Positions 6,911 through 54,773 of a DNA stretch of 64,000 bases are shown one piece after another. A model generated the notes under the pieces. That model made no database searches. It saw only the letters and a list, made by a program, of their open reading frames with translations, and was not told the origin of the DNA. The stretch is taken from contig CP036163.1 of NCBI GenBank assembly GCA_019056595.1, forward strand, positions 4,650,001 to 4,714,000, written 5' to 3'. Source of the DNA: Pectobacterium atrosepticum (lineage in GTDB: Bacteria; Pseudomonadota; Gammaproteobacteria; Enterobacterales; Enterobacteriaceae). How positions within the stretch are numbered: position 1 is the stretch's first letter; the number at the start of each line of letters is the position of its first letter. The position numbers and the translations under genes are program-made.

Positions 6911-6930
6911 AAAAGCCCTTCAGGGCTTTT
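6911..6930 (+). terminator. Intrinsic terminator after yaiL
   Basis: AAAAGCCC, a short TTCA loop and GGGCTTTT form a compact hairpin flanked by A and T runs, so it can work in both directions. It lies 27 bases after the yaiL stop. Confidence 0.8.
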
Positions 6931-7042
6931 CATTAAGATTTTATGTTCAGCCAGTTGATGAAAAATAGAGTGTTATTGTCGTTGCCAATACCTTTTCCGC
7001 CAGCACACTGATGATGGGTTAATCAAATCAGGAGAACACAAG

Positions 7043-21940: not shown

Positions 21941-22077
21941 CCTCATGAGGATCAGCCTACGTCACAGCAAAATATATGCGAAATGCTCGCTGGAACTTGA
22001 TGCGCGTTTCTATCCGGCTGTAAGCGAGGTTTGCTTTCCTTTGCCAATATTTTTTTCGAATACAAAAGGATAAATGT

Positions 22078-22536
22078 ATGTCAAATGCACTGCCTGTTTA
22101 CGAGCAAAACTACGGTAATGAAGAACGTAACCTCGCGGACCATCTTATCGGTCTGGAAATATCAGCACTGGATAAGTGGTTCAAGGGGGATACATCTGGT
22201 TATGAATCGCTCTGGTCAGAACGCAGCTTTACTTACTTTGATGCGGTAGTGACCGAAAGGGTCGATGACTATGAAACGATTAAAGAGTTTCTGAAATCCA
22301 TTGACGGCAAGCTGTTTGCTGACAGTTATGATTTCTGCCATCCACGGGTGCAGGCCGTAAACGATATGGCCGTGCTGACCTATCAGCTGTACGCGAAAAC
22401 CAACCGAATTGATATGGAATACAACGTCATCGAGGTTTTTCAGAAGGAAGACGACCACTGGCGTGTGATCCACTCTACTTGGTCATTTATTCGTCCAATG
22501 GATAAAAAATTTCCTAAAATTGATGCTGTTATCTGA
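22078..22536 (+). CDS. NTF2/SnoaL-like protein
   Basis: 152 residues with an NTF2-like alpha+beta barrel pattern. An N-terminal helix region (LADHLIGLEISALDKWFKGD) leads to a YFDAVVTERVDDYE strand pair, and the C-terminal strands end HWRVIHSTWSFIRPM. Members act as small-molecule binding or isomerase/dehydratase-type enzymes, or as association domains. No catalytic residues can be assigned. It is 137 bases downstream of the AraC regulator, a likely controller. This is the last gene before the accessory region. Confidence 0.7.
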   Translation: MSNALPVYEQNYGNEERNLADHLIGLEISALDKWFKGDTSGYESLWSERSFTYFDAVVTERVDDYETIKEFLKSIDGKLFADSYDFCHPRVQAVNDMAVLTYQLYAKTNRIDMEYNVIEVFQKEDDHWRVIHSTWSFIRPMDKKFPKIDAVI

Positions 22537-22844
22537 CTAGGTGGTTCGCTCAGAGTAGGGGCGAGCGACAAAGAGGCAAGGTTCCGGCCCAGAATATTTA
22601 TAAACCGATGGTAGTGTCTATGCAGGTAAGGTATAGACCGTGAGAATCAGAAACTTTGAATGGTTTTGCGGATGATTTTAAGTTGCGGATTTTTGAGTCG
22701 TTAAGGGGCATTTGGGGGTCACTCCGTCATCGAACCAACTTGACCCCAAATCTGACCACCAAATTCTCCCGATGCGGAGTGAAAATGGAATGCGTATCGG
22801 GAACGCTGTGAACATGAATTTATTGAACAAAGTGCTAAAAAGCA

Positions 22845-22925
22845 AAAATCCCGCTTAAGTTTCCTTAAGCAGGATTTCTAAATTTGGCTCCTCTGACTGG
22901 GATCGCCTTTGCCAGTAACTGGCTA
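22845..22925 (-). ncRNA. Candidate small RNA, copy B of a repeated pair
   Basis: Diverged copy of 9064-9146. On the minus strand: -35 TTGACA (22955-22960), a 17-base spacer, weak -10 TAGCTT (22932-22937), and a terminator hairpin with GAAA loop and T run ending near 22845. In the stem, one C of copy A is replaced by T (a G-T wobble) and a mismatch in copy A is repaired, so pairing is kept. It sits at the boundary between backbone and the defence island. Confidence 0.35.
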
Positions 22926-23214
22926 ATATTAAAGCTAAACCTGAATTCCCTTTCTGTCAAGACCACCAGAATGACCACCAATGAATATAGGTTACATTAA
23001 GCTCGATACGCTTCCCGTTTTGCATGAAGTAATCGCTAATATGTAGTTACCATCAGTTGGAGGAGAGGATCTAAAGACCTTTCCTCCTAAGAAGTCTGAG
23101 AAGGCCATCAATAAACGAGCGTTAGCGGCTTGAGCCCGGAACAATGCGCATGGCTTATCCGCATAGACTCGTACTGAGGTGACCTTGAAGTTGTCCAAAA
23201 TGCCCGACCTGTAG

Positions 23215-23421
23215 AAGCACATTTTTATTGATATCCAGTGGAATGCCGATGGGTTTCTCAACGAAACCCTATTGCAGGCGAAAGAGGATCTTGCCTTGAA
23301 CGATCTGCTCGTTGGCACGCTGCATGCCTCTCCATTTGTGGTAGTGCAAACGCACAAACATAACCGTCTGGAAGAGGGACCCTTAACCCCCAACTGTAAG
23401 CACGGCCGCCATACGAAATGA
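23215..23421 (+). pseudogene. Start-less coding fragment in the 1.2-kb gap before the defence island
   Basis: In the gap 22537-23780, a frame of 68 codons reads like protein (FLNETLLQAKEDLALNDLLV, then GTLHASPFVVVQTHKHNRL) but has a stop just upstream and no start codon near its beginning, so it is a truncated gene. I do not recognise the family. Another short frame at 22981 (MNIGYIKLDTLPVLHEVIAN) ends after 22 codons. The rest of the gap is copy B of the small-RNA-like repeat and nothing I can name. Confidence 0.35.
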
Positions 23422-23780
23422 GAGCAGCAGGCAGAAGCAGAAATACGCGAGAACCCGCCACGCTCCTTGCGAATTACCTAAAGGAGTTACGAGCAGCCCT
23501 TAAGGGAATGGTTTGCATCGGTGCAACTGGTTGCTGTCAAGTGTCTGTGGTGTATCCGGAGTGATGGCACTGCGCGGAATTGGTTCTAATAGCTGCGCTG
23601 ACGGACATGAAATTTTTTTGTGGTTGTGTGTCATCTCTGAACCCCTACTGCGATGAGAATGCCGCTCACCGTGCGCTTCTCAACGAGGGCAGTAAATTTC
23701 CGGCCGCCAGCGCGCTACCTTAGCGCTGGCGGTAACAGGAAAATGAGTGCCTAATTGCTGAACTTTTTGCTCTCACTGGG

Positions 23781-24101
23781 TCAAATATGTTTTTTGAAAT
23801 TTTCCTGAGTTGGATGACATACGCTGCCTTTTATCGCCTCCAGCACACGATGATAGCGGGCTCGCTCAGCTTCGATTAGCTCCCGATCACTTTCCTTTTC
23901 ACCCGCAGATAGTGCTTCATAGGGCGTTGAAATCTGTTCCTTCCAGCGTGTTACAAGCGCTGAGGGAATGGTCAAAGAGCCATCGTCGTTCATCGTGCAC
24001 TGGCTGTGCAGATAACTTTGCCACTTTGCCCAGCGCTCATGTTCTATGCTTGCTAGGATCTCAATCACAGCAGGTGAAATTTCAAAATTAGTTTCAGACA
24101 T
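23781..24101 (-). CDS. RyR-like domain protein
   Basis: 106 residues. The pattern IEHERWAKWQSYLHS, then TPYEALSAGEKESDREL and RYHRVL, matches the compact RyR-like helical domain found in prokaryotic proteins and named from ryanodine receptors. It is seen in nucleotide-signal and defence contexts, where it is thought to bind a ligand. Start at 24101 is supported by GAGGA a few bases upstream. It is divergent from the TIR/caspase operon with 238 bases between, so it may be a sensor, regulator or accessory of that system, or simply a phage-type gene. Confidence 0.6.
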   Translation of the reverse strand: MSETNFEISPAVIEILASIEHERWAKWQSYLHSQCTMNDDGSLTIPSALVTRWKEQISTPYEALSAGEKESDRELIEAERARYHRVLEAIKGSVCHPTQENFKKHI

Positions 24102-24291
24102 TGGATCCTCATGTTTTTCAACGGGCACATACCCTCTCTTAATCAGAAAATTTAGCATAGCCTATCAGTGCATGCCGTCTGTGGTTGTATCCATTCATAT
24201 TGTGCTGATAAGCAGGAATAAATTTAGCTGCATTCCCATAAACCACACTCGTAATTACTAGAAAAAACGCCTTTTTATCAGACCTTTCCTA

Positions 24292-24340
24292 TGTTACATT
24301 TTGAAATCATTTAAAAAAATTCAAATTTTGGAATGTAACA
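24292..24340 (+). promoter_or_regulatory. Inverted repeat overlapping the start of the TIR gene
   Basis: TGTTACATT (24292-24300) and its exact complement AATGTAACA (24332-24340) flank a 31-base AT-rich loop. The right arm ends on the A of the ATG at 24340, and the only Shine-Dalgarno-like bases (GGA) lie at the edge of that arm. It could be a protein operator that blocks transcription, or an mRNA hairpin that hides the start. Confidence 0.5.
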
Positions 24341-24837
24341 TGAGCGTTTTCATCAGTTATCGCCATTCCGATTTTGCACTGGCGATCAGTATTAATAAGA
24401 GACTCAGGGACGTTAATATCGAGACCTATCTTGATAAGCTGGATGCAGAGTCTCAGACCACAGACGACATCACGTCAGTCATTACCCGTAATATTGCCAG
24501 AAGCACACATCTTATCGCGGTTGTGTCATCGCAGACCGCTCAATCTTGGTGGGTTCCTTTCGAAATAGGAGAGGCGACGATACTGGGACGCAGAATTTCT
24601 TCTTATCAGAACGGTTTCCTGAGTCTGCCTGAATATCTCTCCAAATGGCCACAGATGAAAAGTGCGGAACATCTTGAGCTTTTTATCAGTGCATATCAGC
24701 GTGATCTTTTTGAACACGTAACTGAAGGAATGGAAGCTTACAGTACATCAGCTGCAGGACGATCGCTTGATAGCGACCGTTCTGCAGCTGATGAGTTCCA
24801 CCGTAATCTCACTAAAAACATTTTGCACAGCCGATAA
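24340..24837 (+). CDS. TIR-domain protein, first gene of a TIR/caspase/subtilase operon
   Basis: 165 residues. MSVFISYRHSDFALAISINK is a typical TIR beta-A/alpha-A start, and WWVPFEIGEA holds a Glu (residue 75) at the place of the catalytic Glu of NAD-cleaving TIR enzymes, so NADase or cyclic-ADP-ribose synthase activity is likely. The remaining 60 residues are helical and unassigned. It is followed after 35 bases by a ThsB-like protein and then by two proteases. In known systems TIR proteins sense phage and make a nucleotide signal; which of the two TIR proteins does so here is unknown. Confidence 0.8.
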   Translation: MSVFISYRHSDFALAISINKRLRDVNIETYLDKLDAESQTTDDITSVITRNIARSTHLIAVVSSQTAQSWWVPFEIGEATILGRRISSYQNGFLSLPEYLSKWPQMKSAEHLELFISAYQRDLFEHVTEGMEAYSTSAAGRSLDSDRSAADEFHRNLTKNILHSR

Positions 24838-24872
24838 CCGGGTGCGTCTTAAGCGTGTTCGAGGAGAAAATA

Positions 24873-25259
24873 ATGAAAAAACGCGTTTTTATCAGCTTTG
24901 ATTATGATCATGATGCCTCACTGAAGGTGCTGCTGGTTGGTCAGTCAAAAAATGAAGACAGTCCATTTGAATTGGCTGACTGGTCTATTAAGGAGCACAT
25001 TGATCAGAACTGGAAAGATAAAGCCAGAAGCCGGATCCGTGCAGTGGATGTTGTGTGCATCATCTGTGGTCTGCATACCAATACGGCCACTGGCGTTAGT
25101 GCTGAGCTGAAAATTGCTATTGAAGAGAAAAAACCGTATTTCCTACTGTGGGGCTACACGGATAAGACCTGCGTTAAGCCAACAGCAGCACTAACCACCG
25201 ACAAAATATACAACTGGACCTGGCCAAATCTTAAAGCGCTCATTAAAGGAGATCGTTGA
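24873..25259 (+). CDS. ThsB-like TIR-domain protein (MTH538/DUF1863 type)
   Basis: 128 residues. MKKRVFISFDYDHDASLKVL is the start of the MTH538-type TIR-like domain found in Thoeris ThsB. ARSRIRAVDVVCIICGLHT and GVSAELKIA (Glu78 at the catalytic-Glu position) complete the core, and the end carries the family-like YNWTWPNLKAL. Thoeris ThsB proteins detect phage and produce cyclic ADP-ribose isomers. Its stop overlaps the caspase start (TGATG), so the two are translationally coupled, arguing that signal maker and protease act together. ATG at 24873 follows GAGGAG. Confidence 0.82.
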   Translation: MKKRVFISFDYDHDASLKVLLVGQSKNEDSPFELADWSIKEHIDQNWKDKARSRIRAVDVVCIICGLHTNTATGVSAELKIAIEEKKPYFLLWGYTDKTCVKPTAALTTDKIYNWTWPNLKALIKGDR

Positions 25260-26248
25260 TGAGAAAGGCGCTTCTTATTGGCATTGACGACTATCCGGAC
25301 CGCCCGCTTAAAGGTTGTGTAAATGATGCTATAGAGCTGGCTGCGCTTTTTGAAACACATGGTAACGGAGATCCTAACTTTGACGTAAGAAAGCTTACAA
25401 GCAATGACGATGAGGTGACGGCTTATGCCCTTCATAAGCACGTGTCCGAACTCTTTGAGGGTGATGCAGACATTGTTGTACTGTATTTTGCGGGCCATGG
25501 CATTATCGTTCCTGAAACAAACGCTGGTTACATCATGCCTCAGGATGCCCGTGCCGGCGCGTGGGGGATGTCTATGGCTGAAATTTTGGGGATGGCTAAT
25601 CAAGCGCATCCTCGTATTAAGTCGACCGTTATCATTCTAGACTGCTGTCACTCCGGTTTTGCCGGTCAGGTGGTCGGGCTTGATAGTCAGAATGTGTCAG
25701 TTATCGGTACGGGGGTGACGATACTGACGGCCTCGCATCGTGAGGGGAAAGCTGAAGAAGCGGCCGGACACGGTATTTTTACCGATATTCTTCTCGATGG
25801 CCTCCGTGGGGGGTGTTCTGATATACGTGGCAACATTACGCCCGCGGCGCTTTACTCTCATGTTGATCAGACTCTGGGCCCTTGGAAGCAACGGCCTATC
25901 TACAAAGCCAATGTACAGAATTTTATTTCTCTCCGGCAGGTTGAACCTAAGGTGTCATCAGAAATACTGCGTAAGTTACCCAAGTATTTTCCTGAGCCAA
26001 ACTTCGTTTTTCCACTTGATCCTTCTTTTGAACCGGACAGAGATAACGTCCCCGCAGAGCTTAAACATATCCCTGTTAATGAAACCAATGTGGAGATTTT
26101 CAAAGAGCTGCAGAGATGTAATCGCTATGGTCTGATTGCCCCTGATGGGGCTGATCATATGTACTACGCAGCCATTGAGTCTAAAGGCTGTAAGCTTACC
26201 GCTCTTGGCGCACATTACAGGAAACTGGCCGAAACAAAACGATTATAG
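25259..26248 (+). CDS. Caspase-like (C14) protease
   Basis: 329 residues. Residues 1 to about 200 are a caspase fold: KALLIGIDDYP, the His in VVLYFAGHG (His80) and the catalytic Cys in ILDCCHSG (Cys130). The C-terminal 125 residues form a separate domain ending HMYYAAIESKGCKLTALGAH, a type of tail found on other bacterial immune proteins; it could be the signal-binding part. No signal peptide, so cytoplasmic. Coupled to the ThsB-like gene (TGATG) and followed after eight bases by a subtilisin-like protease. In TIR-caspase (type IV Thoeris-like) immunity, a TIR-made nucleotide activates such a protease, which then degrades host proteins. Confidence 0.85.
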   Translation: MRKALLIGIDDYPDRPLKGCVNDAIELAALFETHGNGDPNFDVRKLTSNDDEVTAYALHKHVSELFEGDADIVVLYFAGHGIIVPETNAGYIMPQDARAGAWGMSMAEILGMANQAHPRIKSTVIILDCCHSGFAGQVVGLDSQNVSVIGTGVTILTASHREGKAEEAAGHGIFTDILLDGLRGGCSDIRGNITPAALYSHVDQTLGPWKQRPIYKANVQNFISLRQVEPKVSSEILRKLPKYFPEPNFVFPLDPSFEPDRDNVPAELKHIPVNETNVEIFKELQRCNRYGLIAPDGADHMYYAAIESKGCKLTALGAHYRKLAETKRL

Positions 26249-26256
26249 GTTTCATT

Positions 26257-27447
26257 ATGACCCGATACAGCATACTCAGAAGAAAGGTGGGTACGTCAAG
26301 TGGGCGAAGCATCGACAATGCCAGCATATTGACTGGCGCAGAAGCTTTTACGCTTGTGTCTGAAAATCTCTCTTTACGAGAATTGACCGAAGTGGCAGGC
26401 GATCCTGAGACAGAACTCATTGCTCAGGATATGCCTGTATCATTGATAAAACCCGTTACAAAATCTTCTTGTGAAAATGCAGCGGAGTCTTTTTCTAAAA
26501 AGCAGACGACTCAGGGGTTAGAGGATATATTGGCCGTATCGTCACCCTTTTCCGGACGCGGCGTCACTGTTGCCGTCTTGGATACAGGTATTGAATTGAC
26601 GCATGACTGTTTCAGGGATCTGTCGATAATCAGTAGGGATTTTACCGGTGAAGGCATTCATGACAGAAATGGTCATGGAACCCACTGTGCAGGCACTATT
26701 TTTGGGCGTGATATCAGAGGTTCACGCATTGGCGTTGCCAGGGGTATTGATACGGCCTACATTGGCAAGGTTTTGGCTGACTCGGGTAGCGGCAGTTCAG
26801 ATATGACATACAATGGGATGCTGTGGGCACTGGAGCAAAAAGCAGACATTATCTCCATGTCGCTGGGATTTGACTTTCCCGGCATGGTCGTGAATCTCAC
26901 TAATGACGGATGGCCGACCGATCTGGCAACGTCTACAGCCCTTGATGTATATCGTGACAATCTCAGGATGTTTGATGCCATCATGGCTATCGCCCGTGCA
27001 CAGTCATCATTTGGATATTCTCCGCTGATTATCGCCGCGAGCGGGAACGAAAGCCGCCGCTCTGTCGACAGAAAACTGAAAATTTCCTGTTCCCTGCCTG
27101 CTGCAACTGATGGAGTTATATCGGTTTCAGCCGTCTTTAATAGCGGTAATGGTGTATACAACGTTGCTGATTTTTCGAACACAAAAGCGACGCTCTCTGC
27201 GCCCGGAGTCGATGTTGTCTCTGCCTGGCCGGGCAATACCACCAAATCGCTGAGTGGTACCAGCATGGCTTGTCCGCATGTGGCGGGGGTGGCTGCATTG
27301 TGGTGGGAGGAACGGCGTCGGTCGGGCGTCCGCCCCACCGCTAAAAACGTTTCGGCCAAGCTTATCGCAACGGCAAGAGGTGACCTATTTTCATGTGAGA
27401 ATAATGAGCTGGATACGGGGCAGGGGCTTGTCACCTCACCCCAGTAA
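26257..27447 (+). CDS. Subtilisin-like (S8) serine protease, last gene of the operon
   Basis: 396 residues. The catalytic triad is complete: Asp109 in VAVLDTGIE, His140 in RNGHGTHCAG and Ser336 in SGTSMACPHVAG, with the oxyanion Asn263 in AASGNES. The first 95 residues are an unassigned N-terminal domain that could be an inhibitory or regulatory prosegment. There is no signal peptide, which is unusual because most S8 proteases are secreted, so this one should act in the cytoplasm. It follows the caspase gene by eight bases. It may be a second effector or be switched on by caspase cleavage. Confidence 0.85.
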   Translation: MTRYSILRRKVGTSSGRSIDNASILTGAEAFTLVSENLSLRELTEVAGDPETELIAQDMPVSLIKPVTKSSCENAAESFSKKQTTQGLEDILAVSSPFSGRGVTVAVLDTGIELTHDCFRDLSIISRDFTGEGIHDRNGHGTHCAGTIFGRDIRGSRIGVARGIDTAYIGKVLADSGSGSSDMTYNGMLWALEQKADIISMSLGFDFPGMVVNLTNDGWPTDLATSTALDVYRDNLRMFDAIMAIARAQSSFGYSPLIIAASGNESRRSVDRKLKISCSLPAATDGVISVSAVFNSGNGVYNVADFSNTKATLSAPGVDVVSAWPGNTTKSLSGTSMACPHVAGVAALWWEERRRSGVRPTAKNVSAKLIATARGDLFSCENNELDTGQGLVTSPQ

Positions 27448-27755
27448 TCTGGTGCCTTAAATCATAACATTAGTCATTTAAGCCAAATATGACGTGCTCA
27501 TTTCACCCGGGCATTTATGTAAGCATTTTTTCGGAGCAATGCCAAAGGGGCATATTGTTAGTTTTTCTTGCCAACACGCATCCCAAACGAAGAGTGATAG
27601 TCCATAGCATTGATATGTCTCATATATGAGACAGTATTCTTGTTTAGATTTGTATTAATCGAGAGCGTAATATATTTCTTCGCGATATATCTTCTTAGTG
27701 GCTGTTTTTGCGATCATGCTGCAGATAAGACAAACAATAATTATGGGGAAGATCC
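27448..27755 (+). promoter_or_regulatory. Gabija leader with an 18-bp perfect palindrome
   Basis: No gene in this 308-base gap. TGTCTCATATATGAGACA (27616-27633) is a perfect 18-base palindrome, 122 bases before gajA. This is the size of a typical operator for a dimeric helix-turn-helix repressor. No regulator is encoded next to it. The GGGGAA before the GTG at 27756 serves as the ribosome binding site. Confidence 0.5.
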
Positions 27756-29492
27756 GTGGTTAGAATTTGCAAAATCGAGATCCAGAATTTCCGAACTATC
27801 CGCTTATTGAACTGGCAACCTTCACCAGGACTCAACTGCCTGATTGGCCCAGGAGACAGCGGCAAGACCACTATTCTCGATGCTATTGACCTTTGCCTTG
27901 GTGCCCGCCGCAATATCAGTTTCGCCGATACTGATTTTTATGGGCTGGATGTCACCCAGCCCATCAGCATCACGCTGACGCTCGGTTCGTTGCCTGATGC
28001 TCTGATGCGTTTGGATTCGTACGGAAATTATTTACAGGCCTTCAACCGTGCAAACGGGTTGGTCACCGAAGAACCTGAACAGGGCCTGGAAACGGTTCTT
28101 TGCTTACGTTTGATGGTCGATGGCGAGCTGGAGCCTGTCTGGTCGCTAGTATCACAGCGCGCTCAGGCACATGGGCAGGAGCGCAATATTGCCTGGAAGG
28201 ATCGGTTACTTTTAGCCCCAGCCCGGCTCGGGACTTATGCTAGTTCCAACCTGTCATGGACACGCGGTTCGGTACTCAATCGACTGACCGCGGAACGACC
28301 AAATCTTGGTGCTGAATTGGCCAATGCGGCACGCCAGGCCCGAAACGGTTTCGGCGGTCAGGCTGGTGTACAGCTGGCCGCAACACTGCAAATCGTGAAC
28401 CAGAAAGCCAATGAACTTGGCGTGCCAGTGGGTGGCGGCACCCAGGCATTGCTGGACGCGCACGCCGTATCGATCGGAGACGGAGCCATTGCGCTACACG
28501 ATGCTACAGGGGTGCCCTTGCGCTCACTGGGAACAGGCTCATCCCGTCTACTGGTCGCAGGAATGCAGCGTGCAGCAGCGCAGCAGGCATCTGTCGTTCT
28601 GGTCGACGAAGTTGAGTATGGTTTGGAGCCGCATCGCCTTACCCGATTGTTGAATTCCCTTGGTGCGAAGGAAAATCCCCCACCCCTTCAGGTATTTCTA
28701 ACCACCCATTCCCCGGTCGCTGTCCGCGAGCTTAACGGCAATCAGCTCTTCGTGGTACGCAAGTCTCCGGATGGTGCACATCAGGTTCTCCAGGTAGGTG
28801 TCGCTGATGATATTCAAAGCACCGTCAGGGCTGATCCGGAAGCTTTTCTCGCCCGAAGTGTCATTGTCTGCGAAGGTGCCAGTGAAGTCGGCCTGATCCG
28901 TGGTCTGGACCACTTCTGGACGAACGCAAACGGAGCGTCAATGCTGGCCGCTGGGACTGCGTATGTGAATGTCGGCGGCGGAGAGCCTGACCGGTGCTTT
29001 GTTCGCGGACTCGCATTGCGCCAGCTTGGCTATCGGGTATTGGTCATGGTTGATGCGGATAAGCCGCCCACTGCGGCGACCGTACAGGCATACGTGGATG
29101 CTGGTGGGGAGTACATCACTTGGCGAGAAGGGCGTGCTCTGGAGGACGAACTGTTTCTGAGTCTGCCAGATGCGGGTGTGGATGCGCTGCTTCAGCGAGC
29201 CATAGACCTTGTGGAAGAAGACCTGGTGGAGGCGCATATACAGACTCAGTCAAGTGGACAACTGACTCTCGCCCAAATCCGGCAGCAGCGTCAACAACTA
29301 GGTGTGCCATATCCTCTCGCAACGCGACAGCTACTGGGACTGGCAGCGCGTAATCGTCGAAACGGCTGGTTTAAATCGGTCACCAAGTTCGAGGATGTGG
29401 CCCGCGATATTCTCGGTCCTTATAGTCAAATATCAGAGCCAGAATTTGTCACCCTGATCAATCGTCTCTACTGGTGGCCCCATGCCGCCTGA
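27756..29492 (+). CDS. gajA: GajA, Gabija OLD-family nuclease
   Basis: 578 residues. An N-terminal ABC/OLD-type ATPase (Walker A GPGDSGKTT at 31-39, signature and Walker B around VVLVDEVEYGLEPHRL) is followed by a TOPRIM nuclease domain with VIVCEGASEVGLI and MVDADKP, whose Glu and Asp bind metal. It begins with a GTG. The next gene, gajB, overlaps it by 11 bases. GajA nicks or cuts DNA when nucleotides are depleted during phage replication, and assembles with the helicase GajB. The length matches known GajA proteins. Confidence 0.88.
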   Translation: MVRICKIEIQNFRTIRLLNWQPSPGLNCLIGPGDSGKTTILDAIDLCLGARRNISFADTDFYGLDVTQPISITLTLGSLPDALMRLDSYGNYLQAFNRANGLVTEEPEQGLETVLCLRLMVDGELEPVWSLVSQRAQAHGQERNIAWKDRLLLAPARLGTYASSNLSWTRGSVLNRLTAERPNLGAELANAARQARNGFGGQAGVQLAATLQIVNQKANELGVPVGGGTQALLDAHAVSIGDGAIALHDATGVPLRSLGTGSSRLLVAGMQRAAAQQASVVLVDEVEYGLEPHRLTRLLNSLGAKENPPPLQVFLTTHSPVAVRELNGNQLFVVRKSPDGAHQVLQVGVADDIQSTVRADPEAFLARSVIVCEGASEVGLIRGLDHFWTNANGASMLAAGTAYVNVGGGEPDRCFVRGLALRQLGYRVLVMVDADKPPTAATVQAYVDAGGEYITWREGRALEDELFLSLPDAGVDALLQRAIDLVEEDLVEAHIQTQSSGQLTLAQIRQQRQQLGVPYPLATRQLLGLAARNRRNGWFKSVTKFEDVARDILGPYSQISEPEFVTLINRLYWWPHAA

Positions 29493-30900
29493 GTATAATT
29501 TATTCGCTTTTCGTCGAGGCGCGATCACGGCCCCTGCAGGTTGTGGGAAGACGCAACTGATCGCAAATACATTGTCCCAACATACCGAGGCGAAGCCAGT
29601 TCTCATCCTCACTCATACCAATGCAGGTGTCACGACACTGCGTCTGCGCATGCAAAAAGCCGGAGTGCCCGCTTCGGCTTACCACATTGCCACAATCGAT
29701 GGTTTTTCCATGCGGTTGGTGGCGATGTTTCCGCAGCGAAGCGCTGTTGCCGCTGCAGTCCTCCTGCTCCGGAATCCCGGAGCTGACTACCCGGCAATAC
29801 GCTTGGCTGCTAGGCATTTACTCCAAAGCGGGCACCTCAATGAGGTTCTTGCAGCAAGTTATGCCCATCTGATTGTCGATGAGTATCAGGACTGCAATTT
29901 AGTGCAACATGATCTGGTTACAGCACTTTCCGTGGTACTTCCCACCTGCGTTCTTGGAGACCCGATGCAGGCTATCTTCGGCTTTCGCGGTAATCAGCTG
30001 GTGGACTGGAATACCCATGTGCTTCCCCATTTTCCTGCTATCGGCGAGCTGAATCAGCCCTGGCGTTGGACGAACGCAGGCAAGCCCGAATTTGGTCAGT
30101 GGCTCCTGGAGTGTCGGAGAATACTCCTGGCAGGAGGTGGCATTGATTTACGCCAGGCGCCGGCCGAAGTCGTCTGGGTCGAGTTGCAGCCGGCTACTGC
30201 CATTCAGCAGCGGCTCACCGCTGCGTTAACTCAGGCTGTTACGCGGGAGGGAGACGTGTTGGTGATTGGCGACAGTCGCAATCCTCGAGGTCGTCGTCAA
30301 ATGGCCAGCCAGACGCCAGGGGCGGCGGCTGTAGAGCCCGTAGACTTGGCGGATCTCACACTGTTTGGAACGACTTTTAATCTGCAAGCTGCCAACGCAC
30401 TAATTCGTCTAGTGGAGTTTGCCGCGGAGGTGATGACGCAGGTCGGCGCTGCTGCCTTGCAACCCCGATTAGAGAGCTTACGCCGGGGAACTGCACGCAA
30501 TCCTGCTACAGAGGCAGAAGCTGCACTGCTCGCTTTCGCGAATGCTCCAAGTTTTCCCTTGGCTGCCAAAGCTCTACGCGCGTTGACCCTGCAAAACAAT
30601 GCCCGAGTCTATCGTCCGGATGTTTTGTATTGCTGTCTGCGCGCGATGCAAATGGCTGCGGGAGACAGTTGCAGTTTTGCCGAGGCTACGGTGCGGGAGC
30701 GCGAACGCAACCGGCACGAGGGCAGACCCCTTGCTCGGCGTGCCATTGGCAGTACCCTCTTACTGAAGGGGCTAGAGGCGGAAGTAGCCGTCATAATCGC
30801 TCCTGAAGAGATGGATGCCCGACATCTCTACGTAGCCTTCACTCGTGGCTCGAAGAAACTAGTTATCTGTTCGTTTACTCCAATTTTGATGGCCCGCTAG
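29482..30900 (+). CDS. gajB: GajB, Gabija UvrD-like helicase
   Basis: 472 residues of superfamily 1A helicase. Walker A APAGCGKTQL is at 17-26, Walker B reads LIVDEYQDCN, motif III VLGDPMQAIFGFRGN, and the C-terminal motif VI region LYVAFTRGSKKLVI. It is a compact UvrD/Rep-type enzyme without the large 2B insert. Overlap of 11 bases with gajA gives tight coupling. In Gabija, GajB joins the GajA complex and its ATPase activity is stimulated by GajA-cleaved DNA ends, helping to deplete nucleotides. Confidence 0.88.
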   Translation: MPPEYNLFAFRRGAITAPAGCGKTQLIANTLSQHTEAKPVLILTHTNAGVTTLRLRMQKAGVPASAYHIATIDGFSMRLVAMFPQRSAVAAAVLLLRNPGADYPAIRLAARHLLQSGHLNEVLAASYAHLIVDEYQDCNLVQHDLVTALSVVLPTCVLGDPMQAIFGFRGNQLVDWNTHVLPHFPAIGELNQPWRWTNAGKPEFGQWLLECRRILLAGGGIDLRQAPAEVVWVELQPATAIQQRLTAALTQAVTREGDVLVIGDSRNPRGRRQMASQTPGAAAVEPVDLADLTLFGTTFNLQAANALIRLVEFAAEVMTQVGAAALQPRLESLRRGTARNPATEAEAALLAFANAPSFPLAAKALRALTLQNNARVYRPDVLYCCLRAMQMAAGDSCSFAEATVRERERNRHEGRPLARRAIGSTLLLKGLEAEVAVIIAPEEMDARHLYVAFTRGSKKLVICSFTPILMAR

Positions 30901-30960: not shown

Positions 30961-31941
30961 GTGATAAACAAAAAAGTACTTTCCCTCATAAAGGATGTGA
31001 CTGATAGCGGCAATATGTCTGCCGCAGAGATGGCTGAGTGGATCGACACTCATTCTGAAGACATAGAGAATTTTGTAGCGCTAAAAATGTTCGAGTACCT
31101 AGATGAAGCTAAAGGGGAAGTATTAAAGGAACATTACGAAAATTTAGATGCATTTAGAAAGAGACTATTTGCAACTTGGGAGTCCCCTATAAAGCGGCTG
31201 GATGCATTAATTTATGGCTGTACTGAAATTAGCGATGAGGTAAATAGCGAATATCGCACTAATCCTGGCATAAGGTCTGCAAAGCTGAACATAGATACCC
31301 GACTGCATGCACGTGCAGTCCAGGTTTCTTGCGAGATATCTCACCTTCTAAAAGGTGGGTTTGCAGATGGTGCGATGGCCCGCTGGAGAACACTCCACGA
31401 AACCACTGCCATATTGATATTTATTGCAGAAGGCGACGAAGACCTGGCGAAAAGATTCACGGATTTTCAGAGTATTCAGAGGAAGAAAGCTGCTAATCGA
31501 TATAACAAATATAGTGGAGAGTTGGGTTTTACTTCCTTCTCTTCAGAGGATTTAAGTCGGTTTGATCTCGAAAGGGAAGGCATCGTCGGTAAATATGAAG
31601 CGGGATTCGGTAATGATTTTGGTTGGGCCGCTAAAGCCTTAGGAAAAGAACCCAGTACCAGAACTAAGGTTCGCTTTAGTGATATTGAGGAATTTGTCGA
31701 GCTGGACTTCTTGCGACCGCACTACGGCTTTGCCAACCAGTATATTCATGCAGGAATTGACAGCATTGGCTTCAAGCTCGGTACATCGCTTTCAAATAAA
31801 GATCTCTTGCTATGTGGGCCATCTAATGAAGGGCTGTTAGAGCCGATTCAGTGCACCAGCTTGTCCTTGATACAGGCCACTCAGGCGATAATCTCAGTTT
31901 CACCAGACGATCAACGTCTGCTATATAGCGCCGTGCTCTAG
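30961..31941 (+). CDS. DUF5677 domain protein
   Basis: 326 residues, all-helical. The segment FADGAMARWRTLHETTAILIF, followed by a C-terminal HYGFANQYIHAG, is the signature of DUF5677, a domain seen in defence and mobile regions but of unknown function. The conserved Arg-x-x-x-Glu and His residues recall HEPN-like RNases, though the classical R-x4-6-H motif is not clear. GTG start with AAGGA upstream. It lies 60 bases after gajB and 116 before a SEFIR gene; Gabija is normally two genes, so this is probably separate or an add-on. Confidence 0.65.
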   Translation: MINKKVLSLIKDVTDSGNMSAAEMAEWIDTHSEDIENFVALKMFEYLDEAKGEVLKEHYENLDAFRKRLFATWESPIKRLDALIYGCTEISDEVNSEYRTNPGIRSAKLNIDTRLHARAVQVSCEISHLLKGGFADGAMARWRTLHETTAILIFIAEGDEDLAKRFTDFQSIQRKKAANRYNKYSGELGFTSFSSEDLSRFDLEREGIVGKYEAGFGNDFGWAAKALGKEPSTRTKVRFSDIEEFVELDFLRPHYGFANQYIHAGIDSIGFKLGTSLSNKDLLLCGPSNEGLLEPIQCTSLSLIQATQAIISVSPDDQRLLYSAVL

Positions 31942-32057: not shown

Positions 32058-32990
32058 ATGACACCGACGGTATTTATATCTTACTCACACGATAACGAAT
32101 TACATAAAGACTGGGTACTGCAACTTGCAACAAGGCTGAGATCCAATGGCGTTGAGGTTTTGCTGGACCGCTGGAATCTAAAGCTGGGGCAAGATTTGGC
32201 TGCCTTCATGGAACGTGGCTTATCGTCATCCAGTCGGGTAGTATGTATTTGTTCGGAAGCATACGTCGCAAAAGCGAATGGCGGCAAGGGGGGCGTGGGC
32301 TATGAAAAGCAAATTATTACGGGCGAGCTATTAGCCGACTTGAACAAAAATTGGGTTATTCCTGTTGTCAGAAATAATTCTCAGTCCAAAAAAGTGCCAA
32401 CTTTTTTGGTGGGTAAGTTTTACGTTAGTTTTGAGGATGATAAGCTGTATGAAAATCACTATGAACAACTTTTGAGAGAATTACTGGATGAACCTGTATT
32501 ACCAATACCACCTGTAGGACCTAATCCATTCAAAACAGCGAAGCAATATACCAAGCAAAAATTCTTTCCTGCGAGTGAGAAATACGTATCGCCAGCGTCA
32601 AAGGGGCGAGTAACATTTGATTATTCCAATAATAATGGTCGTTATTATATTGGGCAAAAAGAGCTGGCGTTTGAATTGGATTTTTCAAAGTCGAGCGATC
32701 ATGATATCCAATTATTAAATGATCCAAGTAGTATAAATACTATCGCTATTGTTAAAGATAAAAATGAATTTATAGAAATAGATGACGCACGTATTTATGA
32801 TGGTTCATCAAGAGTTAGACGACCAAAAATAAATCAAATAGCAATATTGCAGAACAATAATGGTTTTTATGCTGCCATCAAAATTCTGTCTATCCAAGAC
32901 GATACTCGTGGTGCTGAGTATGACGAGGTGACGTTTGACTACGTAATTCAAACGAACGGTAGCCCAGACTTTACGTCATTAAAATTTTAG
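32058..32990 (+). CDS. SEFIR (TIR-like) domain protein
   Basis: 310 residues. The first 140 match a SEFIR domain: VFISYSHDNELHKDWVLQLA, DRWNLKLGQDLAAFME and VCICSEAYV, with a conserved Glu in GVGYEKQII (Glu83). SEFIR proteins cleave NAD in some phage-defence systems. The C-terminal 170 residues are AT-rich, beta-rich and unassigned, probably the sensor or oligomerisation part. It could act alone, since stand-alone SEFIR proteins are known defence genes, or with the DUF5677 protein upstream. Confidence 0.75.
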   Translation: MTPTVFISYSHDNELHKDWVLQLATRLRSNGVEVLLDRWNLKLGQDLAAFMERGLSSSSRVVCICSEAYVAKANGGKGGVGYEKQIITGELLADLNKNWVIPVVRNNSQSKKVPTFLVGKFYVSFEDDKLYENHYEQLLRELLDEPVLPIPPVGPNPFKTAKQYTKQKFFPASEKYVSPASKGRVTFDYSNNNGRYYIGQKELAFELDFSKSSDHDIQLLNDPSSINTIAIVKDKNEFIEIDDARIYDGSSRVRRPKINQIAILQNNNGFYAAIKILSIQDDTRGAEYDEVTFDYVIQTNGSPDFTSLKF

Positions 32991-34405: not shown

Positions 34406-35350
34406 ATGACCATTTCCCTGCATACCCATACTAGCGCCCCTAACACCGCAGCGGCGACCAGCGTATCCCCGCTGGAGCAGTCAGGCTCCTCAAAAACGAA
34501 ATTTTCTAAAGCCAAAACCGATATTTATCAGACTGTCACCAACAACATCATTGCAGCGCTTGAAGCCGGTGTAAAACCGTGGTCTTGCCCGTGGAAACGA
34601 GTGGCGGGCATGTCTGGGTTGCCTTCCAACTTCGCAACCGGTATCGCGTATAGCGCAATGAATATCATGCTGTTGTGGTGCAGTGCATCAGAACAGGGCT
34701 TCTGTGATTCACGCTGGATGACATACAAACAAGCACAGGCAGTAGGTGGACAGGTTCGCAAAGGTGAACACGGCACGACAGCCATTTTTTATACAACCTT
34801 AGAGAAGGAAAACGAAGACGGCGAAATCGACCAAATCCCGATGCTGAAAACCTTCAATGTATTCAATGTTGAACAAATTGATGGCCTTCCACTGACAACT
34901 GAAACAGTCAGCACAGAAGCAACCTTTGACCCGTTGCCGGAGGCTGAAAATCTGTTCCAAAAGAGTGGCGCAAACATCACCGAGAAAGGACAAAATGCCT
35001 TTTTCCAACCCTCAACTGATGAGGTCTGGCTACCAGAGCGTCATCTGTTTTCAGATGCAGCTAATTTCTATGCTACTGGCCTGCATGAGCTGGTTCACTG
35101 GAGCGGTGGTAAAAAACGCCTTAACCGTGAAATGAAAGGGAAATTCGGCAGTGCAGATTATGCGGAGGAGGAATTAGTGGCGGAGCTGGGAAGTGCTTTT
35201 CTGATGGCGGATTTGGGGATTATCGGAGAGGTGCAGCATGAAAGCTATATTGCCTCATGGCTCCAGGCGTTAAAAAACGACAAGCGCTATGTCTTCAAAG
35301 CAGCCAGCGCCGCCTCAAAAGCGCATAGTTATTTAATGGATAAAGCCTGA
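34406..35350 (+). CDS. ArdC-type antirestriction protein (zincin metallopeptidase)
   Basis: 314 residues. The N-terminal ArdC domain binds single-stranded DNA (DIYQTVTNNIIAALEAGVKP, then WSCPW), and the C-terminal zincin-like domain has the HELVHW metal motif in ATGLHELVHWSGG, plus a downstream glutamate (EEELVAELGSAF). Family members protect entering plasmid DNA from restriction and are typical of conjugative elements. Its presence within an island that also encodes restriction enzymes suggests it travelled with the transfer genes. Confidence 0.85.
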   Translation: MTISLHTHTSAPNTAAATSVSPLEQSGSSKTKFSKAKTDIYQTVTNNIIAALEAGVKPWSCPWKRVAGMSGLPSNFATGIAYSAMNIMLLWCSASEQGFCDSRWMTYKQAQAVGGQVRKGEHGTTAIFYTTLEKENEDGEIDQIPMLKTFNVFNVEQIDGLPLTTETVSTEATFDPLPEAENLFQKSGANITEKGQNAFFQPSTDEVWLPERHLFSDAANFYATGLHELVHWSGGKKRLNREMKGKFGSADYAEEELVAELGSAFLMADLGIIGEVQHESYIASWLQALKNDKRYVFKAASAASKAHSYLMDKA

Positions 35351-35427
35351 GGGCAGGGGCAAGAAGCCGCAAAGGAATGTGGCTTTAACCTTTCATAGCG
35401 GTGGGAGGAAAGGTGTATAATTCCAAT

Positions 35428-35464
35428 GCGAATTTTCCTGGCATACAGTGTCAGGAAAATTCGC
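35428..35464. repeat. Perfect 13-bp inverted repeat
   Basis: GCGAATTTTCCTG (35428-35440) and CAGGAAAATTCGC (35452-35464) around an 11-base loop. There is no T run, so a simple intrinsic terminator is unlikely. It lies about 80 bases after the ArdC stop. Confidence 0.65.
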
Positions 35465-35918
35465 AGACTGCGGGGCGGGCGGCAAAGAGCCCGCTCATTC
35501 CTTTCAGATGCATTAGAGCAGACTTGATCTGGCAGTGTTCTCTGTTAGAACACGATTTCACCTGATAGTCGGCAACGAGCGAGGAGCGGAAGTTCGCATT
35601 TATTTGCCAACTTAAAAGCGCTTGCAGCCCGTCTCGGATATTTTCTTGCAGACGAATGACCGCGGGCCTTTGAAATTCTGCCTCAGGAACACCAATCTGC
35701 ATCTGGCTTATGTTCACACCAGCGTCACAGGGGTGGGTTCTAGCGTGAGAGTGAAACACGGGAAGAAGTTGTTTTATATTCCCACTCGCTTTCTGTATGC
35801 CTGTACCTTCAGTTGATGCGAAGCTTTGGATATGACGATTAGTTAAAAGGCTCATAAAGGTTAAAATCATTACATAATAACTATTATTGTTCTTTATCAA
35901 TAAATTATGGAAAAACAT
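35451..35918 (-). CDS. Doubtful 155-codon reading frame
   Basis: An open frame on the minus strand, AT-rich at its start and GC-rich later. It has no recognised domain, no clear ribosome binding site, and its end falls in the 13-bp inverted repeat. It may be a decayed gene or chance. The surrounding stretch 35351-36178 holds nothing else I can support apart from a short frame at 35907 (MEKHILTTASPVLCLREAAQ) that stops after 29 codons. Confidence 0.2.
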   Translation of the reverse strand: MFFHNLLIKNNNSYYVMILTFMSLLTNRHIQSFASTEGTGIQKASGNIKQLLPVFHSHARTHPCDAGVNISQMQIGVPEAEFQRPAVIRLQENIRDGLQALLSWQINANFRSSLVADYQVKSCSNREHCQIKSALMHLKGMSGLFAARPAVCEFS

Positions 35919-36178
35919 ATCTTGACCACGGCATCCCCAGTGCTATGTTTACGGGAAGCGGCACAGCGCCTGGACTGCACTCCAGATGGACCATGACCTT
36001 CAAGGATAACGCCTGTCTGCTATGCCAGGTTGGTCAAGCCCTTAGCCCCGCAAGCGAGACAATCAGCAGTGAAGATTAACAGTATTGGCAATCTGTAGCG
36101 AAGAGCTACAGTACTGCCCCTTCCATCATCCACAATGATAGCTATCAGTAAGTTAACGAAAATGAGAGGGCATCGGAA

Positions 36179-38335
36179 ATGCTCGAAGTTGAATTTCAGG
36201 AATGGTTGAAGAACAGAGGTGCCAAAACACAAGCAGGCCTCAACTCCCGTATTTATGCTGTCAAAACTATCGAAAAAAATCTCGCAGCGCTTGGTTCTCC
36301 TCATGCAGATCTGGATGCAGCCTACAAGGCGGATGGGTTTGCGCAATTGCGACAGCGGATCAAAGAGATTCGCCGTGATGCTAAAGACAACGGCGAAGAC
36401 TATCGGTTGCTAATGCCCGAATCAGAGCAACCGCTTAACCGATTGTCCAACTGGAATAGCTGGCTCGGACAATATGGACGCTTCCTGAGTGGTGATGATT
36501 CTCAGGCCGACGAAATTCGGGATTATGTCCTTGAAAACTACATCATCCCAGGCAGAGAGCGAGGTGACGCCAGTGTCACCCTGGTAGTTGGCCCTCTGAA
36601 TACTGAAATGGGCCTCGACAAGGGATGGCCGAACATCTGTCAGGTTCTTGATGGTCAAAAATTTCAGGAGCTAGCGGATGTTCCCCCTCCGGTGACGGAA
36701 GGGCCTAAAAAGAGCACAACCCGGAAATATACGTTCATCCTTACGGAAGGAAGCGAACTGGTGGCCCAGAATAAACCGACTCCGACTAACCTTATTTTTT
36801 ACGGTCCTCCTGGTACCGGAAAAACCTATCACACGGCGAGGGAAGCCGTAGCGCTCTGCGATGGCAAAGACGCCTATCCGAACTCAAAAGATGGGCGTGC
36901 GGCCCTGATGGCGCGCTATAACGAACTGATGGCAGAAAAGAGGATTTCTTTCGTCACATTCCACCAGAGCTATGACTACGAAACCTTCGTTGAGGGCCTT
37001 CGCCCAGAAATCGGTGAAGATGAGTCTTCGTTTGCAGGATTCAGACTCATGCCTACGCCGGGGCTCTTCAGAGAAATTTGCGCCCTTGCCGATCAGGCCA
37101 GAACACAACCCCGTGCACAGACGGATGCCTCGGCACTGCAACTGTCCCAAAAACGCTTCTGGAAAATGGGGCAAGGGACAATTGGCACCGAAGACGATGT
37201 GTATGAAGATGCCCGCGACAACGGGTATATCGCTCTGGGTTGGGGTGGGACCATAGACTGGAGCGCGGATGGATTTTCATCGTTCAACGCGATTCATGAT
37301 GAATGGATCAAGCAAAATCCTGGGAACCTGACGCCTAGTAACTGGACGCAAACCTATCCCTTCCGTTGCGAAATGAAGCCTGGCGATATCGTGATTGTCC
37401 CTTACGGGAACACTGCGTTTCGCGCTATCGCTGAAATCACTGGTGATTACTATTTCGTTCCTGAAGCCGAAGGTTACTATGCCCACCGCCGCCCAGTTCG
37501 CTGGCTACTGACTCTTGATGAACCACTGCCACTCGATACCATTATCGATGGTAACTTCACCATGCGAACGCTCTATTCCATTGCCACCAGTCGTGTGAAT
37601 ATCCCGGCGCTGGGCAGACTGCTGTCGAGTACAGAAAACCCGGATAATCGTTCCGATGTTAAAGGGCAACCAGAACAGTTCGTCCTCATTATTGATGAGA
37701 TCAACCGGGCAAATATCTCGAAAGTGTTCGGTGAACTGATCACGTTAATTGAGCCGGATAAACGTCTGGGAATGCCTGATGCACTCACCGTAACTCTGCC
37801 TTATTCGAAAAAGAAAGATTTTGGCATCCCCGCCAACCTTCATGTCATAGGCACCATGAATACCGCCGATCGATCCATCGCATTACTTGACACAGCATTA
37901 AGGCGGCGATTCAACTTTCGGGAAATGGCTCCCGACGCGACCCTGCTAAGTGAAGTCGAGGGGATCGATCTCAAAGCCGTTCTGAATACCATCAACCAGC
38001 GAATTGAATATCTTATAGGCCGGGAATATCGCATTGGACACGCCTTCTTTATCAATTGTGAATCCAGGGCACAAGTTGAAGATGCGGTGCGCAATAAGGT
38101 CATACCGCTGTTACAAGAGTATTTCTTCGAGGACTGGAGCCGAATCGCGGCAGTTCTGGGTGATGGTTTTATGCAGGAAGAGCAGATCTTACCGCCGCCT
38201 GGAATAGAGGGTGAACCGTTATCAAGCTGGTCAGTACGTGCACCATTCAGAAATGACGCCTTAGATCGACTGGTAGGCAAAGCCAGAACGTTAAATACCA
38301 CTGCTCCCGAGGTGGCTGGTGAATCGAAAGAATGA
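36179..38335 (+). CDS. mcrB: McrB-type GTPase/AAA+ protein with an EVE-like insert
   Basis: 718 residues. An N-terminal domain (about 1-195) is followed by an AAA+ module: Walker A FYGPPGTGKTYHTAR (near 208), Walker B IIDEINRANISKVFGEL (near 504) and the McrB signature MNTADRSIALLDTALRRRF. Between Walker A and B lies a 170-residue insert starting KRFWKMGQGTIG and containing YIALGWGGTIDWS, which looks like an EVE-type modified-base reader. McrB proteins bind modified DNA, hydrolyse GTP and drive the nuclease McrC. The stop overlaps mcrC (ATGA). Confidence 0.87.
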   Translation: MLEVEFQEWLKNRGAKTQAGLNSRIYAVKTIEKNLAALGSPHADLDAAYKADGFAQLRQRIKEIRRDAKDNGEDYRLLMPESEQPLNRLSNWNSWLGQYGRFLSGDDSQADEIRDYVLENYIIPGRERGDASVTLVVGPLNTEMGLDKGWPNICQVLDGQKFQELADVPPPVTEGPKKSTTRKYTFILTEGSELVAQNKPTPTNLIFYGPPGTGKTYHTAREAVALCDGKDAYPNSKDGRAALMARYNELMAEKRISFVTFHQSYDYETFVEGLRPEIGEDESSFAGFRLMPTPGLFREICALADQARTQPRAQTDASALQLSQKRFWKMGQGTIGTEDDVYEDARDNGYIALGWGGTIDWSADGFSSFNAIHDEWIKQNPGNLTPSNWTQTYPFRCEMKPGDIVIVPYGNTAFRAIAEITGDYYFVPEAEGYYAHRRPVRWLLTLDEPLPLDTIIDGNFTMRTLYSIATSRVNIPALGRLLSSTENPDNRSDVKGQPEQFVLIIDEINRANISKVFGELITLIEPDKRLGMPDALTVTLPYSKKKDFGIPANLHVIGTMNTADRSIALLDTALRRRFNFREMAPDATLLSEVEGIDLKAVLNTINQRIEYLIGREYRIGHAFFINCESRAQVEDAVRNKVIPLLQEYFFEDWSRIAAVLGDGFMQEEQILPPPGIEGEPLSSWSVRAPFRNDALDRLVGKARTLNTTAPEVAGESKE

Positions 38336-39654
38336 CGCACCTCACGGTTCGCGAATGGGGTGCTGTTTATGTGAGCACGGAAAGCAGCATAAATGCTCCT
38401 CATGCTTTTACACGCCCTCAGGCTAACGCGCTGCTTACGGCGGCGCGCGAGCATCCGCTGGCAAATCAGCACGGAACCAATATCTTAATCGATCGCCATA
38501 ACAAAATTATTGCCGGGCAAATGGTTGGGGTCATTGCCGCTCCGGGATGTAGCCTTGAGATTCTGCCTAAATTCGACGACGAGACGATAGAACCGGACGC
38601 CACAATACGCAATCGCCTGATACGTATGCTTGATGTTGCCCTCGGCCTTAAACTCGGCAATGGACAGGCTGCAACAATGGCGAGACAAGCTGAAAGCTTG
38701 CTAGAGATACTTATCCGCTTGTTCGCCGATCTACTCTTGTCTGAAGTACATCGGGGATTACCACGCGCCTATTTGGCACAGGAAGACGATTTGCCCTCAT
38801 TGCGTGGAAGGCTCAATATCAAACGACAATTCACTACGCTTGCCGTCCGCCCTGACCGTCTCGCCTGTCGTTACGACGTTCTGTCGGCTGATACCAGCCT
38901 ACTTCGAATTATGAAGGCGTGTGTAGTTTTGCTTCACCATTATGCCCGAGCTGCTGATACGCTTCGCCGTCTGAATGAATTGCGTATCCTGCTGACGGGT
39001 GTTAGCGACGTTCCCTTAAGTCACCTGCCTTGGTCACAGGTGCGGATCGACCGAACCAATCATCGCTGGGAAGCACTCTACAATCTGGCACGTCTTCTCC
39101 TGCGACGCGACTGGCAGGCTACACACCACGATAAACGAGCGCAGAACGGGATTACGCTGCTTTTCCCGATGAACGACCTGTTCGAGGCATATATAGCGGC
39201 ACTGGCGAAGCGTGCTGTACGCGGTACGGAATGGACAGTTCGTGCACAGGCTGGCAGATTATACTGTCTGATCGAGGATGGATTAGAAGGTAAACCACGT
39301 TTCCAGACCCGGCCGGACCTGCTTATCGAGCGGGACCATCAGACTATTATGATCATAGACACTAAATGGAAGCGTATTGGGCGTCATCCCGAAGATGCCC
39401 GGCATGGCGTATCGCAGGCTGATGTCTACCAGATGATGGCCTATGCCCGGCTTTATCACTGCCCACAAGTTATGCTTCTCTATCCACACCATACAGGTCT
39501 GGGAGCTCAACCTCTGAATGCAGGCTATAGGATTCGAGAAGGTGAAGAACAATTACAAGTGGCGAGTGTCAATATGCTCCTTGATGAAGACGAGATTGTC
39601 GGGCAGTTAATTCACCTTATCGGCATCAACACGCAGATAGGCTCTGGCTTGTAA
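38332..39654 (+). CDS. mcrC: McrC, nuclease subunit of the McrBC system
   Basis: 440 residues. The first 300 residues form the McrC adaptor part (TVREWGAVYV, GCSLEILPKFD). A PD-(D/E)XK nuclease core follows: RPDLLIERD and IIDTKWKRI near residues 322-345, then QMMAYARLYHC. Together with McrB it cuts modified DNA entering the cell. It is coupled by ATGA overlap to mcrB. An IS110 element follows directly after its stop. Confidence 0.88.
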   Translation: MTHLTVREWGAVYVSTESSINAPHAFTRPQANALLTAAREHPLANQHGTNILIDRHNKIIAGQMVGVIAAPGCSLEILPKFDDETIEPDATIRNRLIRMLDVALGLKLGNGQAATMARQAESLLEILIRLFADLLLSEVHRGLPRAYLAQEDDLPSLRGRLNIKRQFTTLAVRPDRLACRYDVLSADTSLLRIMKACVVLLHHYARAADTLRRLNELRILLTGVSDVPLSHLPWSQVRIDRTNHRWEALYNLARLLLRRDWQATHHDKRAQNGITLLFPMNDLFEAYIAALAKRAVRGTEWTVRAQAGRLYCLIEDGLEGKPRFQTRPDLLIERDHQTIMIIDTKWKRIGRHPEDARHGVSQADVYQMMAYARLYHCPQVMLLYPHHTGLGAQPLNAGYRIREGEEQLQVASVNMLLDEDEIVGQLIHLIGINTQIGSGL

Positions 39655-54762: not shown

Positions 54763-54773
54763 AGATGACCCCT

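Follow-up and report, generated by a model that had tools for sequence, protein, structure and literature searches.

A TIR-caspase operon with a subtilase gene and a divergent RyR-domain gene in an integrated element of Pectobacterium atrosepticum

The locus described here lies in a 64,000-nucleotide stretch of Pectobacterium atrosepticum DNA (contig CP036163.1, positions 4,650,001 to 4,714,000), which we call the window. Four of its genes form an operon encoding two TIR proteins (TIR1 and TIR2), a caspase-like protease and an S8 protease (subtilase), and a fifth gene, divergent from the operon, encodes a RyR-domain protein (Table 1). The original prediction had read the four genes as one transcription unit, and the open frames bear this out: all lie on the plus strand, with gaps of 35 bases between TIR1 and TIR2, -1 base (TGATG) between TIR2 and the caspase, and 8 bases from the caspase stop to the ATG of the S8 protease. 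The RyR-domain gene, which lies outside the region then described, had been missed. The four operon products were matched by the Pfam families TIR_2 (TIR1; E-value, 3.7e-11), ThsB_TIR (TIR2; 7.7e-9), Peptidase_C14 (caspase; 1.4e-19) and Peptidase_S8 (subtilase; 2.5e-38). Moreover, the active-site residues named in the prediction are invariant in alignments of relatives, namely, the glutamate of TIR1 (n = 10), the glutamate of TIR2 (n = 15), the histidine and cysteine of the caspase (n = 18), and the aspartate, histidine and serine of the subtilase, to which an asparagine is added (n = 45). A C-terminal region of about 110 amino acids is conserved across the caspase family, and inspection by eye found no recognizable signal peptide in the subtilase. 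Among solved structures, the caspase had metacaspase-4 as its only relative (2.6e-5), TIR1 had one weak relative (0.028), and no relative of TIR2 was found. An Rfam scan of positions 22000 to 28500 and a distant blastn search of complete Escherichia coli genomes each gave no match. The operon genes, their spacing and their active sites are far beyond chance, and we conclude that the operon is real, functional-looking and mostly a variant of TIR-caspase immunity.

Table 1. Features of the locus and of its immediate surroundings (positions are those of the window)
Feature	Positions	Strand	Size	Remarks
71-base exact repeat	22709-22779		71 bases	Second copy at the other element end (L328 6189-6259)
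RyR-domain protein	23781-24101	-	106 aa	Divergent from operon; His21, Trp24, Asp72
Spacer between RyR gene and TIR1	24102-24339		238 bases	Presumed site of both promoters
TIR1 (TIR_2 family)	24340-24837	+	165 aa	Glu75 within WWVPFEIG
TIR2 (ThsB-like TIR)	24873-25259	+	128 aa	Glu78
Caspase-like protease	25259-26248	+	329 aa	His80/Cys130
S8 protease (subtilase)	26257-27447	+	396 aa	Asp109/His140/Asn264/Ser336; prodomain-like N terminus
Subtilisin-prodomain-like part of S8	26257-26454	+	Residues 1-66	AlphaFold2 and profile match
Linker between prodomain and catalytic domain of S8	26455-26511	+	Residues 67-85	Partly low confidence
Gabija pair, GajA and GajB	27756-30900	+		2.2e-241 (GajA), 2.8e-196 (GajB); directly downstream of operon

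TIR2 and the caspase resemble type IV Thoeris, in which, as Rousset et al. 2025 are quoted in PMC12847820, a TIR protein makes N7-cyclic ADP-ribose and thereby activates a caspase-like protease that degrades cell proteins. The window shares with that system a caspase-like protease gene immediately preceded by the gene for a ThsB-like TIR, as well as the retention of catalytic residues, and it differs in having a second TIR, a subtilase and a RyR-domain gene. No NCBIfam model named for type IV Thoeris matched at an E-value of 0.1. The likeness was already part of the prediction, and the pair proved to be recurrent. We assembled 25 caspase loci, comprising the window, 17 plasmid or phage records and 7 other genomes; the caspase is in pieces in two of these loci, L033 and L208, while L224 (a partial caspase at a contig end) was left out, and L215 to L218, L225 and L226, which repeat L219 to L224, L227 and L228, were not counted. 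TIR2 accompanied the caspase by profile in 24 of the 25, of which 15 TIR2 genes are rows of the profile itself and three (L030, L221 and L228) matched weakly; in the 25th (L034), TIR2 was missed by the profile and is present by annotation. Three further plasmid loci (L320 to L322) all carried the pair. When viral contigs were searched with the caspase alignment, 49 loci were recovered, and the 18 with a full-length caspase (17 loci) or one truncated by the contig end (L285) all had a TIR2 match, 7 of them weak (28 to 38 bits). The remaining 31 had a partial caspase-domain match and no TIR match in any. The caspase as a single-protein query had no match in viral contigs.

The second TIR, which the prediction had singled out, also recurs with the pair. 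TIR1 was found in 17 plasmid records, and in 12 of the 13 examined a caspase lay in the same locus (10 as fetched loci and 2 by coordinates); the other one, from Aureispira (L213), had TIR1 without a caspase. Four records were left unopened, three of which resemble copies of an examined record. The caspase itself is rare. At 1e-10, 5 of 369 genomes in the class have it (2 as partial matches), and at 1e-20, it occurs in 6 of 398 genomes of the phylum (1 partial), with the genome of the window counted in both, and in 3 of 385 genomes of the class to which G936 belongs.

Gene content behind the caspase varies. Plasmids of Rhodopseudomonas and Methylobacterium have the order TIR1-TIR2-caspase-RyR-metallophosphoesterase, identical to the window up to the caspase, where the window continues with S8 and has the RyR gene divergent. 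The order is TIR2-caspase-S8-CHAT-TIR1-RyR on a Sphingomonas plasmid (L027; 16 bases between caspase and S8), TIR2-caspase-SLOG-like-TIR1 in Rhizobium bangladeshense, and SLOG-like-TIR2-caspase-TIR1 in Methylorubrum. The SLOG-like protein, of about 160 amino acids, occurs in four TIR-caspase loci only (L209 at 6510-6989, L029, L032 and L270), and among the loci compared here, it never shares a locus with RyR; its name rests on a YpsA match in L209 that is weak and below the cut-off (0.0033). A metallophosphoesterase gene recurs downstream of the caspase (L034, L210, L211, L239, L270 and L320), and in all of these except L270, it accompanies both RyR and the caspase.

The fifth gene probably belongs to a family known from phages and animals. 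PMC13232231 describes a phage protein, RyDEP, with four main helices, which hydrolyzes 2' and 3' cyclic ADP-ribose (cADPR) by means of His75 and Asp117 while Trp78 lies on the adenine. There, of eight phage RyR homologs tested, six bound signals and none but RyDEP degraded them, and the animal ryanodine receptor is implicated in the response to cyclic ADP-ribose (PMC13232231). The reading frame has an earlier possible start at 24158, and 24101 is close to where its relatives start. Pfam RyR (PF02026) gave 0.041 for the window protein alone and 0.0006 (Sphingomonas) to 0.027 for relatives, none of them reaching the cut-off and one of five having no match. For a profile of 31 sequences, whose alignment omits 11 of the 41 RyR loci from viral contigs, the best match among RyR structures was 4.2e-9 when summed over tandem copies (0.038 for the best single stretch there), and the single-domain bacterial RyR-like structure 3nrt matched at 1.8e-4. 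An AlphaFold2 model also has four main helices (mean predicted local distance difference test score [pLDDT], 87.9; predicted template modeling score, 0.66). His21, Trp24 and Asp72 are invariant in 9 sequences, and among the 31, the first two are invariant and Asp72 nearly so. Judged by spacing and by alignment to RyR chains rather than to the RyDEP sequence itself, His21, Asp72 and Trp24 stand at the motif places of His75, Asp117 and Trp78. The protein probably belongs with RyDEP in the RyR (R12) family, and it differs from RyDEP in being encoded beside a defense operon and not by a phage.

RyR genes of plasmids keep close company with the caspase. A tblastn search of 72,556 plasmid records returned 21 relatives from Alphaproteobacteria, Gammaproteobacteria and Actinomycetota, and in all 21 the caspase, or what remains of it, lies in the same locus. 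Nineteen were placed by coordinates, with the caspase taken from 16 search matches and 3 annotations, and two by profile; of the latter, NZ_CP125649 has the caspase as two pieces, and in NZ_AP017657 about 60 of its residues remain, behind an insertion sequence element. In 17 of the 19, the RyR gene immediately follows the caspase gene in the same orientation, with 4 to 61 bases between matches, and the other two lie 273 bases upstream (Rhizobium rhizogenes) and about 3 kb downstream (Sphingomonas). Because some records look like copies of one another (four from Rhizobium and two from Sphingomonas paucimobilis), the number of independent cases is below 21. RyR was also found in 10 phage records, two of which were inspected: an unverified phage scaffold (L031) reads TIR2-caspase-RyR, and Microcystis phage LMM01 (L214) has RyR alone within 6 kb. 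One of 41 RyR loci of viral contigs (L229 to L269) has TIR or caspase genes. We note that the viral-contig RyR proteins, which also occur in Microcystis phages, are candidate anti-Thoeris proteins. We found no publication on RyR genes in TIR-caspase operons in a literature search that did not include the main type IV Thoeris papers. We conclude that linkage of the caspase to TIR2, TIR1 and RyR is recurrent and that the RyR gene is a more interesting lead than the proteolytic cascade from caspase to subtilase that had been proposed for the operon.

The subtilase is a different matter. The prediction had put the four genes forward as a candidate system, which the comparison does not support as a conserved unit: among the loci opened, only the Sphingomonas plasmid repeats a subtilase directly behind the caspase. 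Within the caspase set, S8 occurs in three loci (the window, L027 and an Agrobacterium pTi locus, L029, which has TIR1, TIR2, caspase and S8 in one locus), the last two having been fetched through their S8 matches. No S8 was found in the 18 viral caspase loci or in L320 to L322. A genome scan confirmed at least 537 S8 relatives, of which the best 80 loci were kept, and their neighborhoods ruled out the four-gene system as a general conserved unit. Of the reading as a whole, the TIR-caspase pair like that of type IV Thoeris, the recurring second TIR and the place of S8 in the operon are supported, and the conserved four-gene unit is not. S8 matches in the host family were found in 22 of the other 391 genomes, all weak and in open frames of 558 to 1,090 amino acids. 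On viral contigs, 80 S8 loci were kept with one full-length relative (L122), the one viral S8 locus scanned for neighbors, and no TIR or caspase lay near it; on plasmids, 313 records had S8, and neighborhoods were opened for 6. In a tree of 49 S8 sequences, which, like the S8 alignment, leaves out 15 of the 59 loci L042 to L100, the window and Sphingomonas proteins fall in a clade of 8 with near relatives (support, 99/97), and the two as a clade of their own were not rejected (P = 0.42). Placing the Agrobacterium protein in one clade with them was rejected by the approximately unbiased test (P = 1.4e-6), and, because of this rejection, S8 probably joined TIR-caspase loci at least twice. Other S8 loci have CHAT proteases (L052, L071, L083 and L094) or trypsin-nuclease fusions (L077, L082 and L086) as neighbors. 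A relative of the window subtilase follows a pair of an AAA ATPase and a 736-amino-acid S8 protein in L046 (4549-9161), a pair that we read, on our own account and not from a PADLOC result, as IetAS-like. The window subtilase shares an S8 peptidase with IetAS (AAA ATPase plus S8), and it differs in that its PADLOC IetS matches are weak (1.2e-6) and its operon lacks an AAA partner.

The N-terminal part of the subtilase looks like a subtilisin prodomain, placed before an S8 catalytic triad. In an AlphaFold2 model built from 45 sequences (mean pLDDT, 92.2), it has strands at residues 2 to 9 and 31 to 38, a helix at 40 to 47, and strands at 52 to 57 and 60 to 63, and residues 71 to 80 of the linker that follows have a mean pLDDT of 53. 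The best stretch of the family profile in 3whi_A (subtilisin E, 365 amino acids) pairs profile positions 5 to 210 with chain positions 8 to 217 and so reaches about 90 residues farther toward the N terminus than it does with mature chains, as judged by the range and not by residues. In other pro-form chains (Tk-subtilisin precursor), the best stretch lay in the catalytic part. Pfam Inhibitor_I9 matched none of the 45 family members, which weighs against a prodomain.

How might these genes work together? We lean toward reading the locus as a two-TIR variant of type IV Thoeris with a recruited protease and a signal regulator of its own. Phage infection would lead one or both TIRs to cleave NAD+ into a signal of the cyclic ADP-ribose type. 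The signal would bind and activate the caspase-like protease, which, by likeness to type IV Thoeris, would degrade cell proteins and so stop the phage in a suicide-type switch. The subtilase would be a protease zymogen, recruited from a widespread family as an extra effector in the operon, and it might either mature by itself or be cut in its linker by the caspase. Finally, the RyR protein may bind or hydrolyze the TIR signal and thus set a threshold or end the response.

Several observations weigh against this reading. The likeness to type IV Thoeris was judged from a second-hand description. RyR is present in only 8 of the 25 caspase loci, a set partly chosen by RyR, TIR1 and S8 matches, and its orientation in the window, opposite to that of the operon, differs from that of the 19 plasmid relatives placed by coordinates. 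The place of RyDEP His100, which contacts the phosphate (PMC13232231), is taken by Gln56 in the window protein as judged by spacing, and we therefore call it a RyR-domain protein and not a RyDEP. In 40 of the 41 viral-contig RyR loci, the flanks retrieved, which are short in some cases, showed neither TIR nor caspase, and the family thus also serves phages. Lastly, TIR1, TIR2, caspase and RyR were absent by profile from all of the best 80 of at least 537 S8-centered genome loci, again within fetched flanks that were sometimes short. Non-conservation of the four genes was a test set beforehand, and for the subtilase it is largely what was found.

That the subtilase is instead a passenger, a stand-alone cytoplasmic protease and possibly a defense gene in its own right that landed behind the caspase, is a real if doubtful alternative. 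The 80 S8-centered loci speak for it, as do close relatives that sit among unrelated genes (L042 to L045 and L047, by our own gene calls, which are approximate in high-GC loci) and the position of the Agrobacterium protein outside the clade of the window and Sphingomonas proteins. The tight operons of the window and Sphingomonas speak against it, and so does the third locus in which S8 accompanies both TIRs and the caspase. The cascade of the original prediction, in which the TIR signal turns on the caspase and the caspase turns on a second protease by cutting the N-terminal part of the subtilase, we consider unlikely. It would suit the common operon, the narrow gap and the same order in Sphingomonas, and the low-confidence linker behind the prodomain could be a place to cut. 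Moreover, there is a precedent in canu loci, where a caspase activates a downstream pro-enzyme (PMC12799240); the window likewise has a caspase with a downstream enzyme possibly needing proteolysis, but it has a subtilase in place of a gated nuclease, plus TIR proteins. Direct adjacency of caspase and S8 is limited to two loci, however, and the comparison added no support to the cascade. The N-terminal part resembles an ordinary prodomain, shared with seemingly solitary relatives and thus no caspase-specific adaptation, and a prodomain common to the family is no evidence for a cascade. Subtilisins, besides, usually cleave their own prodomain.

For the RyR protein, we prefer a role in braking or buffering the signal. 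It could instead be a receptor that leaves the signal in place and helps turn on an effector, be it the caspase, the phosphoesterase or the subtilase. SLOG is the signal sensor of type I ThsA, and the SLOG-like protein takes the place of RyR in four loci; moreover, a metallophosphoesterase gene accompanies RyR and the caspase in five. Most of the tested phage RyR relatives of high conservation bind without degrading (PMC13232231). The histidine and aspartate retained where RyDEP has its catalytic pair would permit catalysis, however, and we hold a receptor to be improbable. A counter-defense gene of the mobile element, whose product would silence Thoeris as a sponge or hydrolase and which the element would retain next to the operon, has in its favor that 2' and 3' cADPR are degraded or sequestered by RyR proteins of phages (PMC13232231), that viral RyR loci mostly lack TIR and caspase, and that the window copy is on the opposite strand, but co-location with the caspase or its remains in every plasmid relative, mostly just downstream and on the caspase strand, is unexpected for a free inhibitor and makes this quite unlikely.

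The locus sits in an integrated element, about 47.8 kb long, which runs from 22628 to beyond the window (G000:C2, approximately 4672628-4720432), and the operon lies 1 to 1.7 kb inside one end. The far end has the second repeat copy, an integrase gene and tRNA-Asn, and type IV secretion genes lie at 49693-58496. In G1470, a genome from the same genus, the two flanks and the tRNA-Asn are present, but the element is missing, and about 2.3 kb of other DNA separates the flanks. We conclude that this is a tRNA-Asn integrated conjugative element. Behind the Gabija pair that adjoins the operon are a DUF5677 protein (30961-31941) and a 310-amino-acid TIR/SEFIR-domain protein on the plus strand (32058-32990; TIR_2, 2.1e-22; SEFIR, 4.8e-18), which makes a third TIR-like defense candidate at this element end. 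Farther on, also on the plus strand, an ArdC-like antirestriction protein precedes a 718-amino-acid AAA_5 ATPase with a 440-amino-acid neighbor (34406-39654), and this stretch is perhaps another restriction-type system.

Immunity based on TIR signals has to be kept silent and shut off again. The RyR gene next to the caspase on plasmids is a concrete candidate for this control, and it connects the control with a domain found in calcium channels of animals. The locus further shows that outputs, such as a subtilase or a phosphoesterase, can be added behind the caspase. Perhaps TIR-caspase immunity carries its own off-switch, a host RyR protein that hydrolyzes or soaks up the TIR signal, with phage RyR proteins being stolen or shared versions and the animal RyR domain a distant relative; we offer this tentatively, as possible but not likely. 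In type III CRISPR, removal of the signal falls to ring nucleases. If true, the RyR off-switch would be their counterpart for ADP-ribose signals.

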